Origin: Candidatus Iainarchaeum sp.
GTDB taxonomy: Archaea; Iainarchaeota; Iainarchaeia; Iainarchaeales; JAFCCW01
Assembly (NCBI GenBank): GCA_017609985.1
Contig: JAFCCW010000005.1
Location: 1-62,776 of the forward strand
Reading direction: 5' to 3'
DNA length: 62,776 nt
A program made the translations under genes and the position numbers. The notes below the pieces were generated by a model. That model saw only the letters and a program-made list of their open reading frames with translations. It did not search any database and was not told the DNA's origin. This document shows positions 34,075 to 40,474 of this stretch, in pieces (the first letter of the stretch is position 1; every line of letters begins with the position of its first letter).

Positions 34075-34746
34075 ATGAAAATAATCTTTGACAGTTCCAC
34101 TCTAATTTCTCTTTCGTCAAGCTGCCTCATAAATGTCTTAAAGGAAATTAAAGAAAACACTGGTGTTGAATTAATCATACCAAAAAGTGTTGAATTTGAA
34201 TGTGTTACTCACCCTCTTGGAATAAACAGATTTGAATTGAATGCTGTTAGAATAAGAAAAGCAGTCCAGGACGGAGCAATTCAGATTGCAGAAAAGACTA
34301 ATCAACGAGACACGGAAACAGGAAGGCTTTCCCGCCTAGCAAACAGCATATTTTATGCAAACGGAAGAAAGATTGAAATACTGCAAAGAGGAGAACTTGA
34401 AATGCTCGCAATCGCAAAAGAAATCGGTGCAAAAATTCTAGCAGTGGATGAACGAACCGCAAGAATGATTATTGAAAATCCATCAGCACTTCAAGCACTC
34501 ATAAGCAGAAGAAGACACAAAAAAGTCAACGTAAACAAAAATGCATTAAATGAATTCAGAGACTTGTTTCCAGGACTTTCTTTTGTAAGGTCTTCCGAAC
34601 TAATAGCTTATGCCTTTGAAAAAGGAATTCTTGAAAAAGAGCTTGGCAAAGGAAAAGAATCTGTTGAAGCAGCATTGTATGCAGTGAAGTTCAGCGGCTG
34701 TGGTATTTCTCTGGAAGAGATAAGGAACTATCTGAGGGAAATCTAA
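34075..34746 (+). CDS. PIN-domain-like protein
   Basis: The 223-residue protein begins MKIIFDSSTLISLSSS (first acidic residue of a PIN fold). It has IPKSVEFECVTHP with a conserved Glu, then LQRGELEMLAIAKEIGAKILAVDERTARMI, the central Glu and Asp pair typical of PIN nucleases. A C-terminal ~80-residue helical extension follows. It would be a Mg-dependent ribonuclease in the cytoplasm. It starts directly after the helical protein gene and its stop overlaps the GNAT gene's ATG (TAATG). It is longer than typical VapC toxins (~130 residues). Confidence 0.75.
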   Translation: MKIIFDSSTLISLSSSCLINVLKEIKENTGVELIIPKSVEFECVTHPLGINRFELNAVRIRKAVQDGAIQIAEKTNQRDTETGRLSRLANSIFYANGRKIEILQRGELEMLAIAKEIGAKILAVDERTARMIIENPSALQALISRRRHKKVNVNKNALNEFRDLFPGLSFVRSSELIAYAFEKGILEKELGKGKESVEAALYAVKFSGCGISLEEIRNYLREI

Positions 34747-35282
34747 TGAAAATTCAGAAAGCCTGTTTGGAAGACGAGAAAGAACTTCTAGAAATTGCTT
34801 CCAAGGAATTTCCATACATCTCCGAAGAACAAAAGAGATTTGAACACAAGCTTGAAAACGGGCAATACTTAATATTCAAAGCAGTTGTTTCAAAAAAAAT
34901 AATTGGATTTATTGAAATAGAAATTATTGAAGACAACGAAATTAGTGAAAACAAGACTGCGAGAGTAAACGGGCTTGCAGTAAAAAAAGAATTTGAAGGA
35001 AAAGGAATCGGACAAAAACTTTTAGAAATCGGAATTCAAGAATCAATAAAAATTGAAATAAAAAAAATTACTCTGTTAGTGCTTGAACAAAACAAAAAAG
35101 CACAGCAAATTTATTCAAAAGCAGGTTTTGAATTCCTCGAAACATACCCTAAACAAATTGATGAAAACAAAGTTGAAGAAATGCAGCTTGTTTTGGAACC
35201 TGAAAAATTTGAAGAAGAAAAAGAAGAATCAGTCCAAGAAAAACATGAACTGAAAAGCATTGAAGTGCACGGCGTGTCCTAA
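34746..35282 (+). CDS. GNAT-family N-acetyltransferase
   Basis: The 178-residue protein has the GNAT core: TARVNGLAVKKEFEGKGIGQKLLEIGI (acetyl-CoA loop, Q/RxxGxG/A-type) and LLVLEQNKKAQQIYSKAGFEFLETYPKQID. The latter matches RimI-like enzymes that acetylate protein N-termini. A Glu-rich C-terminal tail (EEEKEESVQEKHELKSIEV) is unusual. It is the third gene of the operon with the PIN protein, with its ATG overlapping the PIN stop. Its end overlaps proS on the other strand by 4 bases. Confidence 0.85.
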   Translation: MKIQKACLEDEKELLEIASKEFPYISEEQKRFEHKLENGQYLIFKAVVSKKIIGFIEIEIIEDNEISENKTARVNGLAVKKEFEGKGIGQKLLEIGIQESIKIEIKKITLLVLEQNKKAQQIYSKAGFEFLETYPKQIDENKVEEMQLVLEPEKFEEEKEESVQEKHELKSIEVHGVS

Positions 35283-36871
35283 TAGGCTTTTGCAAAAAAT
35301 GTTTTGTGTTTTGCTGGTCTGCCGCACTTAATGCATTTCATTTCTGAGTCTTTTTGATTAAATGGAATGCATCTGCTTGTAGCAGTTGTTTCAGTTTTTA
35401 TTTCCTCTTCACAATCTTCCAAATCACAAAAAGGAACAAGAACCATTTTCTTTTCATTAATTGCTTTCTTGAATTCGTCCCAACTACCTGCTTCAACTGT
35501 GTTCTTTTTCAAAAAGTTTTCAGCTTTGTTGAACATGTCTGACTGCATTTTCTTCAACATAGAAGAAATCTCTTTTGAAATATTTTTCTCTTTCACAAAC
35601 TTTTTTTCCCCAGTATCGCGCCTTACAACAACAACCTGGTGTTTCTTTATGTCTCTTGGACCGATTTCTATCCTTATTGGGATTCCCTTCAATTCCCATT
35701 CATTAAATTTCCAGCCAGGAGAATAAGAGTCTCTGTCATCAACAAATGCATTGAATTTTGAAAGACTTTTTGCAACAGCTCTCGCATTTCTAAGAACCTC
35801 TTTCTTAGAGTCCTCAAAAGTAATTGGAACAACAACTGCTTTTCTTCGCGCAATATTTGGAGGCAGAACAAGACCCTTGTCGTCTCCGTGCACCATTACA
35901 ATTGCTCCAAGCAAGCGTGTGGAAAAACCCCAAGAATTCTGCCAAGCAAAATGCTTTTTCTCATCTTTTCCAACAAAGGACACATCAAATGTTTTTGCAA
36001 AGTTCTGACCAAGATTGTGTGAAGTTCCCATCTGCAAAGCCTTTCCGTCAGGCATTAAAGATTCCAGAGTAAAGGTTCTCTTTGCTCCCGCAAATCTTTC
36101 ATAAGCTGTTTTTTCCCCCACAACAACTGGGATAGCAAGCTCTCCCTCTACGAGTTTTCTGTAATCGTCAAGAAATCCGAGAGCTTCTTTCTCACACTCG
36201 CTCTCGGTTTCATAAACACAGTGACCTTCCTGCCACAAAAATTCACGTGTTCTCAAAAAAATCTTTGTCTGTTTTACCTCCCATCTCAAAACAGAACACC
36301 ATTGATTAATTCTCAAAGGAAGTTCTCTCCATGAACGAATCCACTTGCTGTAAGAATCATACATTATTGTCTCGCTTGTCGGTCTAATAGCAACACGCTC
36401 TTCAGATCTATCACCTTCAATCCAAGCAAGCTCTGGAGCAAAACCCTCTGCATGCTCTGCTTCCTTTTTGAAAAAACTTTCAGGAATCAAAAGAGGAAAG
36501 TAAGCATTTTCAACACCCTTCTTTCGGATTGTTGAATTGAATTTGTCCTGAATTTCTTCCCAGATAGAATAAGCATTTGGTCTGACAATCATAAACCCGC
36601 TAATAGGAGCATAGTCTGCAAGCTCTGACTTTAACACAACCTGATTATACCATTCACTAAAATCATTATTCTTTGTAACCGTGATTCCAAGCTCTTGTTC
36701 CTGTTTTTTGTTCTTTGATTTGTTTCCTGATTTGCTATTGTCTCTATTTTTGTTTATGTTTTTGTTTATGTTTTTTTCCCTGTTCCTAGCCTGACTTTTG
36801 TCTTTGTGTCTAGCCTTGTTCTTGAATTTGTTTCCTGTTTTCCTTTTGCGCATGTTTTCATTCCCTGTCAT
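35279..36871 (-). CDS. proS: Prolyl-tRNA synthetase, archaeal/eukaryotic type, with a Lys/Asn-rich N-terminal tail
   Basis: The 530-residue enzyme has class II motifs: motif 2 around VAIRPTSETIMYDSYSKWIRSWRELPLRINQWCSVLRWE, the ETESECEKEAL insert, and motif 3 in GAIVMVHGDDKGLVLPP. An anticodon-binding domain follows, then the C-terminal zinc-like domain of the archaeal type (CDLEDCEEEI...CIKCGRP) ending in Tyr. The first ~62 residues are a Lys/Asn/Arg-rich tail with the repeat NINKNINKN, not part of the usual enzyme. It lies 8 bases after proB and downstream of two tRNA-Pro genes. It charges proline to tRNA. Confidence 0.93.
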   Translation of the reverse strand: MTGNENMRKRKTGNKFKNKARHKDKSQARNREKNINKNINKNRDNSKSGNKSKNKKQEQELGITVTKNNDFSEWYNQVVLKSELADYAPISGFMIVRPNAYSIWEEIQDKFNSTIRKKGVENAYFPLLIPESFFKKEAEHAEGFAPELAWIEGDRSEERVAIRPTSETIMYDSYSKWIRSWRELPLRINQWCSVLRWEVKQTKIFLRTREFLWQEGHCVYETESECEKEALGFLDDYRKLVEGELAIPVVVGEKTAYERFAGAKRTFTLESLMPDGKALQMGTSHNLGQNFAKTFDVSFVGKDEKKHFAWQNSWGFSTRLLGAIVMVHGDDKGLVLPPNIARRKAVVVPITFEDSKKEVLRNARAVAKSLSKFNAFVDDRDSYSPGWKFNEWELKGIPIRIEIGPRDIKKHQVVVVRRDTGEKKFVKEKNISKEISSMLKKMQSDMFNKAENFLKKNTVEAGSWDEFKKAINEKKMVLVPFCDLEDCEEEIKTETTATSRCIPFNQKDSEMKCIKCGRPAKHKTFFAKAY

Positions 36872-36879
36872 TAAATCAC

Positions 36880-37677
36880 CTAAACATAAAATATGGTTCC
36901 TGTTTCTTCTCCACGCATTATTTTTGGAATGTTTCCCTTTTCTCCCTTCGCAATAATTATGGGAACCTGTCCTTTTAAAGCAATTTCCACAGCCGCAAGT
37001 TTTGTTCTAAAACCACCTCGGCCCCCAGAATTGCTTGAGCCAGCTTCAATTCCAAAATCCTTTAGACTCTTTATTTCCCTAACAAGAACTGCATCGGAAT
37101 TCTCGCTTGGATTCTTGTCAAAAACTCCATCAACATCAGTTAAAATTACTAAAAGACCTGCATTGAGATGAGAAGCAACAAGTGCTGACAAAACATCATT
37201 ATCAGAAAAGTGTGTTTCGGAAGCAAGCTCTTCAACTGAAACAGCATCGTTCTCGTTCACGATTGGAACCACATTCATTTCAAGAAGCTTTTCTATTGTT
37301 CTGGAAAGGCAAGAACAAGCAGCATCATTTTTGAAATTGTCCTGTGTTAACAAAACCTGTGCAACAGGCTGATAGTATTTTGAAAAGCAATGAGTAAACT
37401 CCTGCATTAACAGATGCTGTCCAACGGATGCGAGAGCCTGCTGTTCCACAAGAGAAGAATTCTTTTTAGAAAAACCAAGAACCTGTTTTCCAAAACCAAT
37501 TGCTCCACTGCTGACAATAATAAATTTTTTTCCGTTAACAGACTTTTTTGCGATTTCGGAAGCAATGGCTTCAACAAGAACTGCGTTGAAAGAACCATCT
37601 TTCATGATAGTGTTTGTTCCAAGCTTGATTACTGTTAACTGGGATTGTTCAACAATTTTTTGTCTCAGGAAGAACAC
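36880..37677 (-). CDS. proB: Glutamate 5-kinase (amino-acid kinase fold, no PUA domain)
   Basis: The 265-residue protein has the amino-acid kinase motifs of ProB: VIKLGTNTI, IVSSGAIGFG, PIVNENDAVSVEE, FSDNDVLSALVASHLNAGLLVILTDVDGVFDKNP and GRGGFRTKLAAVEIALKGQVPIIIAKG. It lacks the C-terminal PUA domain of bacterial ProB. It phosphorylates glutamate as the first step to proline. The start is GTG at 37677, the only one upstream of the KLGTNT motif, with a G-rich ribosome binding site. It begins 7 bases after the tRNA-Pro(GGG) 3' end. No proA or proC is in the window. Confidence 0.88.
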   Translation of the reverse strand: MFFLRQKIVEQSQLTVIKLGTNTIMKDGSFNAVLVEAIASEIAKKSVNGKKFIIVSSGAIGFGKQVLGFSKKNSSLVEQQALASVGQHLLMQEFTHCFSKYYQPVAQVLLTQDNFKNDAACSCLSRTIEKLLEMNVVPIVNENDAVSVEELASETHFSDNDVLSALVASHLNAGLLVILTDVDGVFDKNPSENSDAVLVREIKSLKDFGIEAGSSNSGGRGGFRTKLAAVEIALKGQVPIIIAKGEKGNIPKIMRGEETGTIFYV

Positions 37678-37684
37678 CCCCTAA

Positions 37685-37759
37685 TGGGAGCGCCGTGATT
37701 CGAACACGGGTTACCAGCTCCCCGAGCTGGAGTGATGGACCAGACTACACTACGCCCCC
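37685..37759 (-). tRNA. tRNA-Pro (GGG)
   Basis: The 75-nt sequence folds with acceptor GGGGGCG/CGCTCCC (one G-T), D stem GTG/CAC, anticodon stem CCAGC/GCTGG with loop TCGGGGA (anticodon GGG) and T arm CCGTG TTCGAAT CACGG. Position 33 reads C rather than T. Only 7 bases separate its 3' end from the proB start. Confidence 0.9.
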
Positions 37760-37783
37760 GGTCAAAAATAAAAAATGAAAAAA

Positions 37784-37858
37784 TGGGACATCCCGGATTT
37801 GAACCGGGGTCAATGACTCCCAAAGCCACAATGCTAGACCAGGCTACACCAATGTCCC
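37784..37858 (-). tRNA. tRNA-Pro (TGG)
   Basis: The 75-nt sequence has acceptor GGGACAT/ATGTCCC, anticodon stem GTGGC/GTCAT (with G-T pairs) and loop TTTGGGA (anticodon TGG), and T arm CCCGG TTCAAAT CCGGG. It lies 24 bases upstream of the tRNA-Pro(GGG) gene on the same strand, so the two are probably one transcript. Confidence 0.92.
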
Positions 37859-37859
37859 G

Positions 37860-38029
37860 CCTTTTTCGTAAGGTCAATTTCGAGCAAGCTCGAAAGGGCG
37901 CATCCAAGCCCTGCTCGGATAGCGCGGCTCCGAGATACGTTCTCCCCGTTCTGATGGAACGAGGCATAAATACAGAATACGCTCTCAGCGCCTCTAAAAT
38001 TTCGGAAGAAAAAGCATTTAAATGAATAG
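37860..38029 (-). other. GC-rich leader region of the proline cluster
   Basis: On the minus strand a TATA-like CATTTAAATG (about 38014-38023) precedes ~150 bases that are far richer in G+C than the surroundings. The stretch contains the perfect palindrome TTTCGAGC AA GCTCGAAA (37878-37895), and runs to the tRNA-Pro(TGG) start. No convincing frame is present. It may be a 5' leader or a small RNA ahead of the tRNA pair. Confidence 0.4.
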
Positions 38030-38132: not shown

Positions 38133-38624
38133 ATGCCTGCAAAAATAGAAAATAAAACCTTTATTCATGATTCAGCTGTCCTGCTTGGAAATGTAGAGAT
38201 TGGAGACAACTCCAGCATCTGGCCGAACGCGGTTCTGCGAGCTGATAAAGGAAGCATTAGGATTGGTGAAAGGACAAGCATTCAGGACTGCTGTGTTCTC
38301 CACGCAGACTGGGAGCAGGGAATTGAAATCGGTTCAAACGTGACTGTGGGACATGGCACTGTTGTGCATGCCTGCTCTATTGGAGACAACTGCCTGATTG
38401 GAATGAACTCAACCGTGATGACTGGAGTGAAACTAAAGGGAAAGTGCATCGTGGGAGCCGGCGCAGTGGTCACCAAGGGCATTGAAGCAGAGAACGCGCT
38501 GATTCTCGGAGTGCCTGGAAAAATAATCAGAGAGTTGAAGGAAAGCGAGCTAAAAGACATTGAAAGAAAAGCACAAGAATATGTTGATTTGAAAGAGAAA
38601 TATCTTGCAAGACAAAATGTTTAA
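38133..38624 (+). CDS. Gamma-carbonic-anhydrase-like hexapeptide protein
   Basis: The 163-residue protein is a left-handed beta-helix of the gamma-carbonic anhydrase/YrdA/PaaY family: IHDSAVLLGNVEIGDNSSIWPNAVLRAD, then GERTSIQDCCVLHAD, SNVTVGHGTVVHACSIGDN and GMNSTVMTGVKLKGKCIVGAGAVVTKG. The three metal-binding His (HAD, GHG, HAC) are all present. A C-terminal helix packs against the helix prism. It forms a trimer that binds zinc or iron; activity as a carbonic anhydrase varies in this family. Confidence 0.9.
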   Translation: MPAKIENKTFIHDSAVLLGNVEIGDNSSIWPNAVLRADKGSIRIGERTSIQDCCVLHADWEQGIEIGSNVTVGHGTVVHACSIGDNCLIGMNSTVMTGVKLKGKCIVGAGAVVTKGIEAENALILGVPGKIIRELKESELKDIERKAQEYVDLKEKYLARQNV

Positions 38625-38647: not shown

Positions 38648-40474
38648 ATGAAATTCTTGGAAGTAGCTGAGTTCTGGAGCCGGGTGGAGAGTGCTTCCTC
38701 CCGACTCACGATGACAGACATCATTGCAGAAGCACTTGAGAAAGCAGAAAAAAAAGATGTGCGCCCTCTTGTCTATCTATCACAAGGAAAGCTTGGGCCA
38801 GATTTTCTAGAAGAAGACCTTGGTCTGGGAGAAAAGCTCGTAATAGAAGCAATTGCGAAAGCCTCAGGCAATGCAAAAGACGAAGTGCAAAAGCAGTACA
38901 AGAAAATCGGAGACATTGGAGAGCTTGCAGAAAAGTTGTCAGATGGAAGAAAACAACAGTCTCTTGGAAAGCAGGAACTCTCTTTTGAAAAAGTTTTCAA
39001 AAATATGGAAAAGATTACAAAAGCAGAGGGAAAGGGAAGCCAGCTGTCAAAGATAAGACTGTTAGCAGAACTGTTGAATTCTGCTTCAGGAACCGAGGCA
39101 AAATATATTGTGCGAATTCCAATAGGAGCAATGAGGCTCGGAATTGGAGAACCAACAATAATGGACGCATTGGCAATAAACTATCTCGAAGAATTCAGGC
39201 AACAGGAAAAAATTCTTGAAAAAAAACTCGGGAAAAAATACAAAAAAAAAGAAGACCTTGAAAGACAGCTCAAGTTTAAGTTAAGAGAAAAAATTGAAGC
39301 AAAATACAATATTCATCCCGATCTTGGAGAGATTGCGGAAATAATTAAAGAAAAAGGTTTGAAGGGAATTCAAAGTATTTCGATTGAAACTGGAATCCCG
39401 ATTCGCCCGACTCTTGCTGAAAGGCTTCCAAGTGCAAAAGAAATTGTTGAAAAGATTGGAACATGCGCAGTTGAAGCAAAATATGATGGTTTCAGATTTC
39501 AGGTTCACAAAAATGGAGACAAAGTAATTATTTTTTCGAGGAAAATGGAAAACATGACAAACATGTTTCCAGAAATAGTTGAAGGCGTCAAGAAACAGGT
39601 AAAGGCAGACAAGGCAATAATAGAGGGAGAAGCACTTGCATTCGAAGAAGAGACCGGAGAATACTATCCGTTCCAGGTAACAATCCAGAGAAAGAGAAAA
39701 TATGATATTGAAGAAAAAGCAAAAGAACTTCCCTTGAAACTGTTCGTATTTGACTTAATGATGTTTAATGGAAAAGACATGATGAAGGAAACATTTAGGA
39801 AAAGAAGAGAAAAACTTGAAGAAATCATTGAAGAAGGAGAAATTGTTGCACCAACAAACACCATCACCACAAACAAGCCAGAAGAAATCGAAAAGTTTTT
39901 TGAAGAAAGCATTGAAAAGGGATTGGAGGGAATTATTGCCAAAGATCTTGAAGCAAAATATATTGCTGGAGCAAGAAAGTATGCTTGGATAAAACTTAAG
40001 AGAAGCTACAAGGGAGAAATGCAGGATTCAACAGACCTTGTAATAATTGGATACTACAAAGGAAAAGGAAAAAGAGCAAGATTTGGGTTGGGTGGCTTGC
40101 TAACCGCGTGCTATAACAAAAAAGAAGACATGTTTGACTCTGTTGCAAGAATTGGAACTGGTTTAAGCGAACAACAGCTTGAAGAAATGGAGAAAAGATT
40201 AAGCAAAATTTCAGTAAAGAAAAAGCCGATTCGGGTGAACTCTGAAATAACACCGGATGTCTGGACAGAACCAAAGTATGTGATTGAAGTAGTGGCAGAC
40301 GAAATAACTGAGAGCCCAATGCATGTTTGTGAAAAGAAAGGAAAAGAAAAAGGACTTGCTCTTCGATTTCCAAGACTGATTTCTTTCAGACAGGATAAAA
40401 AACCAGAGCAAGCCACAACAGGAAAAGAAATAAAACAAATGTTCAAGAAACAAAAGCACGTGCAAAAAGATTAA
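38648..40474 (+). CDS. lig: ATP-dependent DNA ligase
   Basis: The 608-residue protein is a full archaeal replicative ligase. It has an N-terminal DNA-binding domain (~1-240) and the nucleotidyltransferase motif I AEAKYDGFR, where the adenylated Lys is residue 278. Motif III (KLFVFDLMMFNGKDM), motif IV (LEGIIAKDL), motif V (AWIKLKRSYK) and an OB-fold domain follow. It seals nicks in replication and repair. Possible alternative starts lie a few codons further in. Its stop overlaps the end of the convergent M20 peptidase gene by 4 bases. Confidence 0.95.
   Translation: MKFLEVAEFWSRVESASSRLTMTDIIAEALEKAEKKDVRPLVYLSQGKLGPDFLEEDLGLGEKLVIEAIAKASGNAKDEVQKQYKKIGDIGELAEKLSDGRKQQSLGKQELSFEKVFKNMEKITKAEGKGSQLSKIRLLAELLNSASGTEAKYIVRIPIGAMRLGIGEPTIMDALAINYLEEFRQQEKILEKKLGKKYKKKEDLERQLKFKLREKIEAKYNIHPDLGEIAEIIKEKGLKGIQSISIETGIPIRPTLAERLPSAKEIVEKIGTCAVEAKYDGFRFQVHKNGDKVIIFSRKMENMTNMFPEIVEGVKKQVKADKAIIEGEALAFEEETGEYYPFQVTIQRKRKYDIEEKAKELPLKLFVFDLMMFNGKDMMKETFRKRREKLEEIIEEGEIVAPTNTITTNKPEEIEKFFEESIEKGLEGIIAKDLEAKYIAGARKYAWIKLKRSYKGEMQDSTDLVIIGYYKGKGKRARFGLGGLLTACYNKKEDMFDSVARIGTGLSEQQLEEMEKRLSKISVKKKPIRVNSEITPDVWTEPKYVIEVVADEITESPMHVCEKKGKEKGLALRFPRLISFRQDKKPEQATTGKEIKQMFKKQKHVQKD

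Follow-up and report, generated by a model that had tools for sequence, protein, structure and literature searches.

The stretch of 62,776 nucleotides (nt) from Candidatus Iainarchaeum sp. analyzed here (hereafter the window) carries a proline locus. In it, two transfer RNA (tRNA) genes for proline, the gene for glutamate 5-kinase (proB) and the gene for prolyl-tRNA synthetase (proS) follow each other on the minus strand with gaps of 24, 7, and 8 nt. The window, contig 35, belongs to a genome (G000) of 1.16 Mb in 37 contigs that is 86.6% complete. Both tRNA-Pro(UGG), at 37784..37858, and tRNA-Pro(GGG), at 37685..37759, were called by ARAGORN and matched Rfam RF00005 with 54 bits, and in neither is the CCA end encoded. 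The 24-nt spacer between them, TTTTTTCATTTTTTATTTTTGACC (37760..37783), contains T-runs at which transcription could partially end, and has no space for a promoter. The 7-nt spacer TTAGGGG (37678..37684) connects the 3' end of tRNA-Pro(GGG) to the GTG of proB (36880..37677), the product of which is a glutamate 5-kinase of 265 amino acids without a PUA domain (TIGR01027; PF00696; PDB 2j5t/2w21). A further 8 nt, GTGATTTA on the minus strand, separate proB from proS (35279..36871), which encodes an archaeal-type prolyl-tRNA synthetase (ProRS) of 530 amino acids (TIGR00408; PF09180, PF00587, and PF03129). The Shine-Dalgarno sequence of proS, AGGTGAT (36875..36881), overlaps the proB stop codon. 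These matches bear out the four genes, their order and all of their coordinates as given in an earlier note on this DNA. The third tRNA-Pro gene of the genome (CGG) is located elsewhere, on contig C15.

The earlier note also placed the proB start 7 bases past the tRNA end, which holds if GTG 37677 is the start. This GTG is the sole ATG, GTG, or TTG start for proB, and an in-frame TAG stands directly 5' of it. An alternative is an in-frame CTG nine bases past the GTG and four bases after GGTGTT; the sequence GGGGGTG at the proB start is Shine-Dalgarno-like and would serve the CTG start. The 7-nt gap is conditional, because it depends on the choice of the GTG. The window ProB scored 244.8 bits against TIGR01027 (cut-off 186) over residues 15–263. 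Comparison with PDB 2j5t showed the presence of K10, S50, N134, D137, N149, D150, and K217 (E. coli numbering), the catalytic and glutamate-binding residues of the E. coli enzyme. The window protein is thus probably still an active glutamate kinase. The window ProRS scored 583 bits against TIGR00408 (cut-off 437) and has the ProRS C-terminal domain PF09180. Its N terminus is extended by about 60 amino acids rich in Lys and Asn (36700–36871, minus strand), an extension that was not present in the relatives read here. The Shine-Dalgarno sequence 5' of the proS ATG suggests that this extension is translated, and it may be a tRNA-binding tail.

To place the window among its relatives, 75 genomes of this order of DPANN-type archaea, whose members are named Diapherotrites, were searched for proA, proB, proC, and proS, and the surroundings of the matches were retrieved. 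A recurring locus was found that consists of a divergent DNA ligase gene, tRNA-Pro(UGG), tRNA-Pro(GGG), an optional stretch, proS, a convergent GNAT gene, and a PIN-like gene. The optional stretch between the tRNA genes and proS is proC-proA-proB. When only strict tRNA calls on the same strand no more than 6 kb upstream of proS were counted, and only loci with at least 1 kb of upstream sequence, 27 of 61 loci had such a tRNA-Pro, and these represent 13 of 18 families. With tRNA-Pro genes numbering two or three in 1.1 Mb, less than one such locus is expected by a rough estimate of chance. The full form, tRNA-Pro(UGG), tRNA-Pro(GGG), proC, proA, proB, and proS, is present in G012, and G015 and G039 are similar with a complete proCAB set. 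The content then decreases from this full set to proC and proB in G055 and G061, to proB alone in G000, G007, and G050, and to none in G018 and G011; many genomes retain tRNA-Pro and proS without any pro genes. The arrangement is not due to chance, because it recurs in the order, nor is it unique to the contig on which the earlier note described it. The window is a shortened form of this recurring proline locus that has lost proC and proA, with proB standing directly behind the tRNA. The direct tRNA-proB contact of 7 nt was observed only in the window genome, with the next closest at about 79 nt in G059. A scan of public genomes retrieved 80 related proS loci, the majority from outside the order. 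Apart from members of the order, just L177, L178, and, probably, L204 have tRNA-Pro upstream of proS; with so few matches outside, the trait is mostly one of this clade. A search for related loci queried with ProB alone gave no match. In seven of the public loci (L175, L179, L182, L185, L200, L219, and L230, labelled Woesearchaeota, Pacearchaeota, or Nanoarchaeota) a tRNA-Arg(UCG) gene was observed upstream of proS, at a distance of 0.1 to 2.6 kb.

Genes for tRNAs and for their charging enzymes are usually scattered, and the earlier note called clustering of a tRNA with its ligase and the first enzyme of the amino acid's synthesis rare. Clustering of tRNA and synthetase is not rare in the present lineage, in which two other synthetase genes are preceded by their own tRNA and proB is an optional part of the proline locus. 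Inspection of the genes beside the 41 tRNA matches of G000 revealed that hisS follows tRNA-His after 10 nt and ileS follows tRNA-Ile(UAU) after about 100 nt. G000 has at least three cognate tRNA-synthetase units, for Pro, His, and Ile; a rough estimate puts the chance expectation at 0.02 per genome for a tRNA gene with its own synthetase gene as the next gene downstream. For the order, 30 hisS loci and 30 ileS loci were compared: most of the former have tRNA-His ahead of hisS on the same strand, often at a distance of 10 to 120 nt, and most of the latter have tRNA-Ile(UAU) ahead of ileS. Chance neighbors occur as well, namely serS near tRNA-Lys and glyS near tRNA-Thr; these, together with tRNA-Met before asd and tRNA-Ser after an aspartokinase gene, are adjacent and were rejected as cognate pairs. 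The literature, of which coverage was incomplete, yielded no account of tRNA-synthetase pairing throughout the order in Diapherotrites. In many loci of the order (L292–L321), tRNA-Thr(GGU) was located about 30 to 120 nt behind hisS.

The gaps of 24, 7, and 8 nt are too short for an archaeal promoter with a TATA box near -26 and a transcription factor B recognition element (BRE), so shared transcription is the simplest reading, and tRNA-Pro(GGG), proB, and proS of the window are most simply one unit. The 5' side of tRNA-Pro(UGG) is a GC-rich, strongly folding stretch and possible leader (37859..37995, minus strand) with a predicted fold of -55.6 kcal/mol (z -3.57; matched in stability by 1 of 200 shuffles), for which a search of Rfam gave no match. 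The nearest TATA-like box 5' of the unit, by consensus match only, is TTTAAA at 38017..38022 on the same strand. Among the relatives, a TATA-like box 18 to 48 nt before tRNA-Pro(UGG) was found in 60% as compared with 25% of shuffles (consensus test only), and a T-run follows tRNA-Pro(GGG) in 25%. A position profile of TTTATATA showed no clear peak, whereas the broader TATA-like test gave one.

The earlier note had suggested looking for proA and proC elsewhere in the genome. Neither was found in the 86.6% complete G000: there was no match to TIGR00407 for proA, which was detected in the controls, and none to TIGR00112 for proC. Ornithine cyclodeaminase was likewise not found in this genome. With none of the three detected, no known route leads from the window ProB to proline in this genome. 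Such orphan kinases recur in the order; proA is absent from 13 of the 22 proB-bearing genomes and located near proB in the other nine. It is very unlikely that proA was missed by incompleteness in all eleven orphans with sequence upstream of proB. The orphan ProBs retain K10, S50, N134, D137, N149, D150, and K217 in the comparison with PDB 2j5t, the G051 fragment covering part of them. In family f8 the ratio of nonsynonymous to synonymous substitution rates (dN/dS) was 0.09 for the orphan pair G060/G061 (synonymous divergence, dS, 0.70) and 0.12 to 0.17 for further orphan pairs (dS 1.7 or more). With intact residues and low dN/dS, the orphan kinase looks active and under purifying selection, at least in f8. 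When the orphan label was placed on the ProB tree it changed at least twice, and four times at best fit, so proB has been retained more than once. A dedicated replacement of ProA encoded between the tRNA and proB of relatives was considered and rejected, as no novel reductase is shared there; by eye, G007 carries a glycosyltransferase-like and G050 a LAGLIDADG-like open reading frame.

Taken together, these observations are best explained by a conserved cognate tRNA-synthetase unit with an optional proline-synthesis insert, in which tRNA-Pro(GGG), proB, and proS form one transcript and ProB is kept, a reading to which we assign a probability of roughly 0.65. Beyond the observed gene content, conservation, and gaps, we infer that tRNA-Pro(GGG), proB, and proS would be transcribed together, and that RNase P and tRNase Z would excise the tRNA, so that the remaining mRNA has a very short leader. 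The cognate tRNA and its synthetase would thus be produced together. The product of ProB would not be converted to proline by any known route found in G000, and the kinase may be kept for some other use.

Several observations weigh against this reading. A strict tRNA-Pro within 6 kb is lacking in 34 of the 61 proS loci, some of which are explained by contig ends, by introns hiding the tRNA, or by moved genes (G002, G006). T-runs follow tRNA-Pro(UGG) in the window and, among relatives, in 56%. Where the genes of relatives are more widely spaced, a TATA-like box is located 18 to 48 nt before tRNA-Pro(GGG) in 50% vs 14% of shuffles (consensus test only). In view of such boxes and T-runs in the looser loci, a single shared transcript is not a general rule; the signals of the relatives fit independent starts in looser loci together with transcription that continues past tRNA-Pro(GGG) into the protein genes. 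In addition, G000 is 86.6% complete, and in this one genome the absence of proA and proC could be due to chance; for proA the chance is about 13%. The DNA ligase and GNAT neighbors are conserved too; the whole neighborhood tends to stay, and conservation alone is therefore no proof of functional coupling.

The last point leads to the strongest competitor, in which an old neighborhood has persisted in a small, rarely rearranged genome without any coupling, each part having its own promoter and terminator. In its favor are the retention of the PIN as well as the ligase and GNAT neighbors, the finding in relatives of TATA-like boxes ahead of either tRNA and of T-runs behind tRNA-Pro(UGG), and the unrelated genes inside the locus in G050 and G007 (by eye, e.g., glycosyltransferases). 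However, three cognate pairs, all co-directional with the tRNA first, are not expected from inertia of gene order alone, and gaps of 7 to 29 nt hold no promoter. We regard this explanation as possible but on balance unlikely. That ProB is a relic being lost after proA and proC went is more doubtful still. The decrease in content from G012 to G018 and G011 can be read as stepwise loss, and ProB of family f10 evolves faster (about 50% identity vs 78 to 86% for ProRS) and scores below the TIGR01027 cut-off; yet the catalytic residues are complete in every orphan that covers them, dN/dS in f8 is low, and proB was retained repeatedly on the tree.

The proposal of the earlier note, that shared transcription of tRNA and mRNA would couple proline supply to charging, is supported in its first part as the simplest reading, the gaps being too short for a promoter, and not in its second, as proA, proC, and ornithine cyclodeaminase were not found. 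Co-regulation through joint production of the tRNA, the synthetase, and the first biosynthetic enzyme, with proline synthesis matched to use, could hold ancestrally, as a complete proCAB is located between tRNA-Pro and proS in G012, G015, and G039. For the present locus it is improbable, given the 13 proB genomes without proA and the many genomes with tRNA-Pro and proS but no pro genes. Least probable of all is the replacement of ProA by another reductase such as ArgC acting on glutamyl-5-phosphate, with proline still being made: the arginine operon of G000 does include ArgC (TIGR01850, 392 bits), but proC was not detected in G000, and in seven orphan genomes (G050, G059, G009, G069, G070, G051, and G061) no member of the ArgC/Asd fold was found, so ArgC is not a general answer. 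Passages on a B. subtilis proline bypass via arginine metabolism contain no evidence on ArgC using glutamyl phosphate (PMC9245794).

In L251 906-12733 (G000 contig C1), argS is directly followed by the arginine operon itself, which comprises argG, a 397-amino-acid protein without an NCBIfam match, argC, and argD, and continues with N-acetylornithine carbamoyltransferase (NF003384, 475 bits vs 288), argB, an argE-like gene, and argH. Judged from this gene content, the DPANN-type archaeon has an acetylated carbamoyltransferase route, and no acetyltransferase gene was seen in the operon. Around the proline locus, the window contains a divergent gamma-carbonic-anhydrase-like gene with hexapeptide repeats (38133..38624, plus strand; family profile matches) and the divergent ATP-dependent DNA ligase gene that recurs beside the locus (38648..40474, plus strand; TIGR00574). 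On the other side are the convergent GNAT acetyltransferase gene (34746..35282, plus strand; PF00583), the stop codon of which overlaps that of proS, and the recurrent neighbor identified by eye as PIN-like (34075..34746, plus strand), which has no Pfam match and is conserved by tblastn. A hairpin motif, YCRAG(N6-18)GAAGATRG, with an outer stem CCATC/GATGG and an asymmetric internal loop, was observed in relatives (L334, L336, L344, L345, L349, L152, and L165); in several of these loci it stands shortly before a tRNA gene. On G000 contig C37 (L256 1501-2742), tRNA-Asn is followed 67 nt on by a tyrosine recombinase gene; such a gene beside a tRNA is the usual mark of an integrated element.

Known systems resemble the conserved cognate unit in part. 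In the E. coli tufB operon, four tRNA genes are followed by tufB; as here, tRNA genes are located directly upstream of a gene for a translation protein, and tRNA processing separates them from the mRNA, as it would here. The tRNAs of that operon are not cognate to the protein, whereas here tRNA and synthetase are cognate, for three amino acids. The pylT-pylS cluster of methanogens likewise has a tRNA gene beside its own synthetase and amino-acid biosynthesis genes, but it is a pyrrolysine code-expansion cassette, while the present locus is a standard proline set at a conserved chromosomal position. Bacterial and archaeal proBA and proBAC operons encode the same enzymes as found in G012, G015, G039, and G056; in the window this set is cut down to proB and joined to tRNA-Pro and proS. 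In E. coli thrS, with its tRNA-like leader, and in T-box leaders, an RNA that binds the synthetase or the tRNA precedes the synthetase reading frame. The present case differs in having a real tRNA gene instead of a mimic or sensor. A speculative and rather remote extension is that transcripts of the Pro, His, and Ile synthetase genes have a 5' leader containing the authentic cognate tRNA, that binding of the synthetase to the uncut tRNA regulates processing or translation, and that the orphan kinase belongs to the same circuit; such cis autoregulation would use the authentic tRNA and not a mimic.

The finding is larger than first described, as cognate tRNA and synthetase genes recur side by side for three amino acids. 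Three recurring pairs in one order would allow a direct test of whether shared transcription sets the levels of tRNA and synthetase together. The repeated retention of an intact glutamate kinase after the loss of ProA raises the question of whether these reduced archaea have an undiscovered reductase or another use for glutamyl phosphate.

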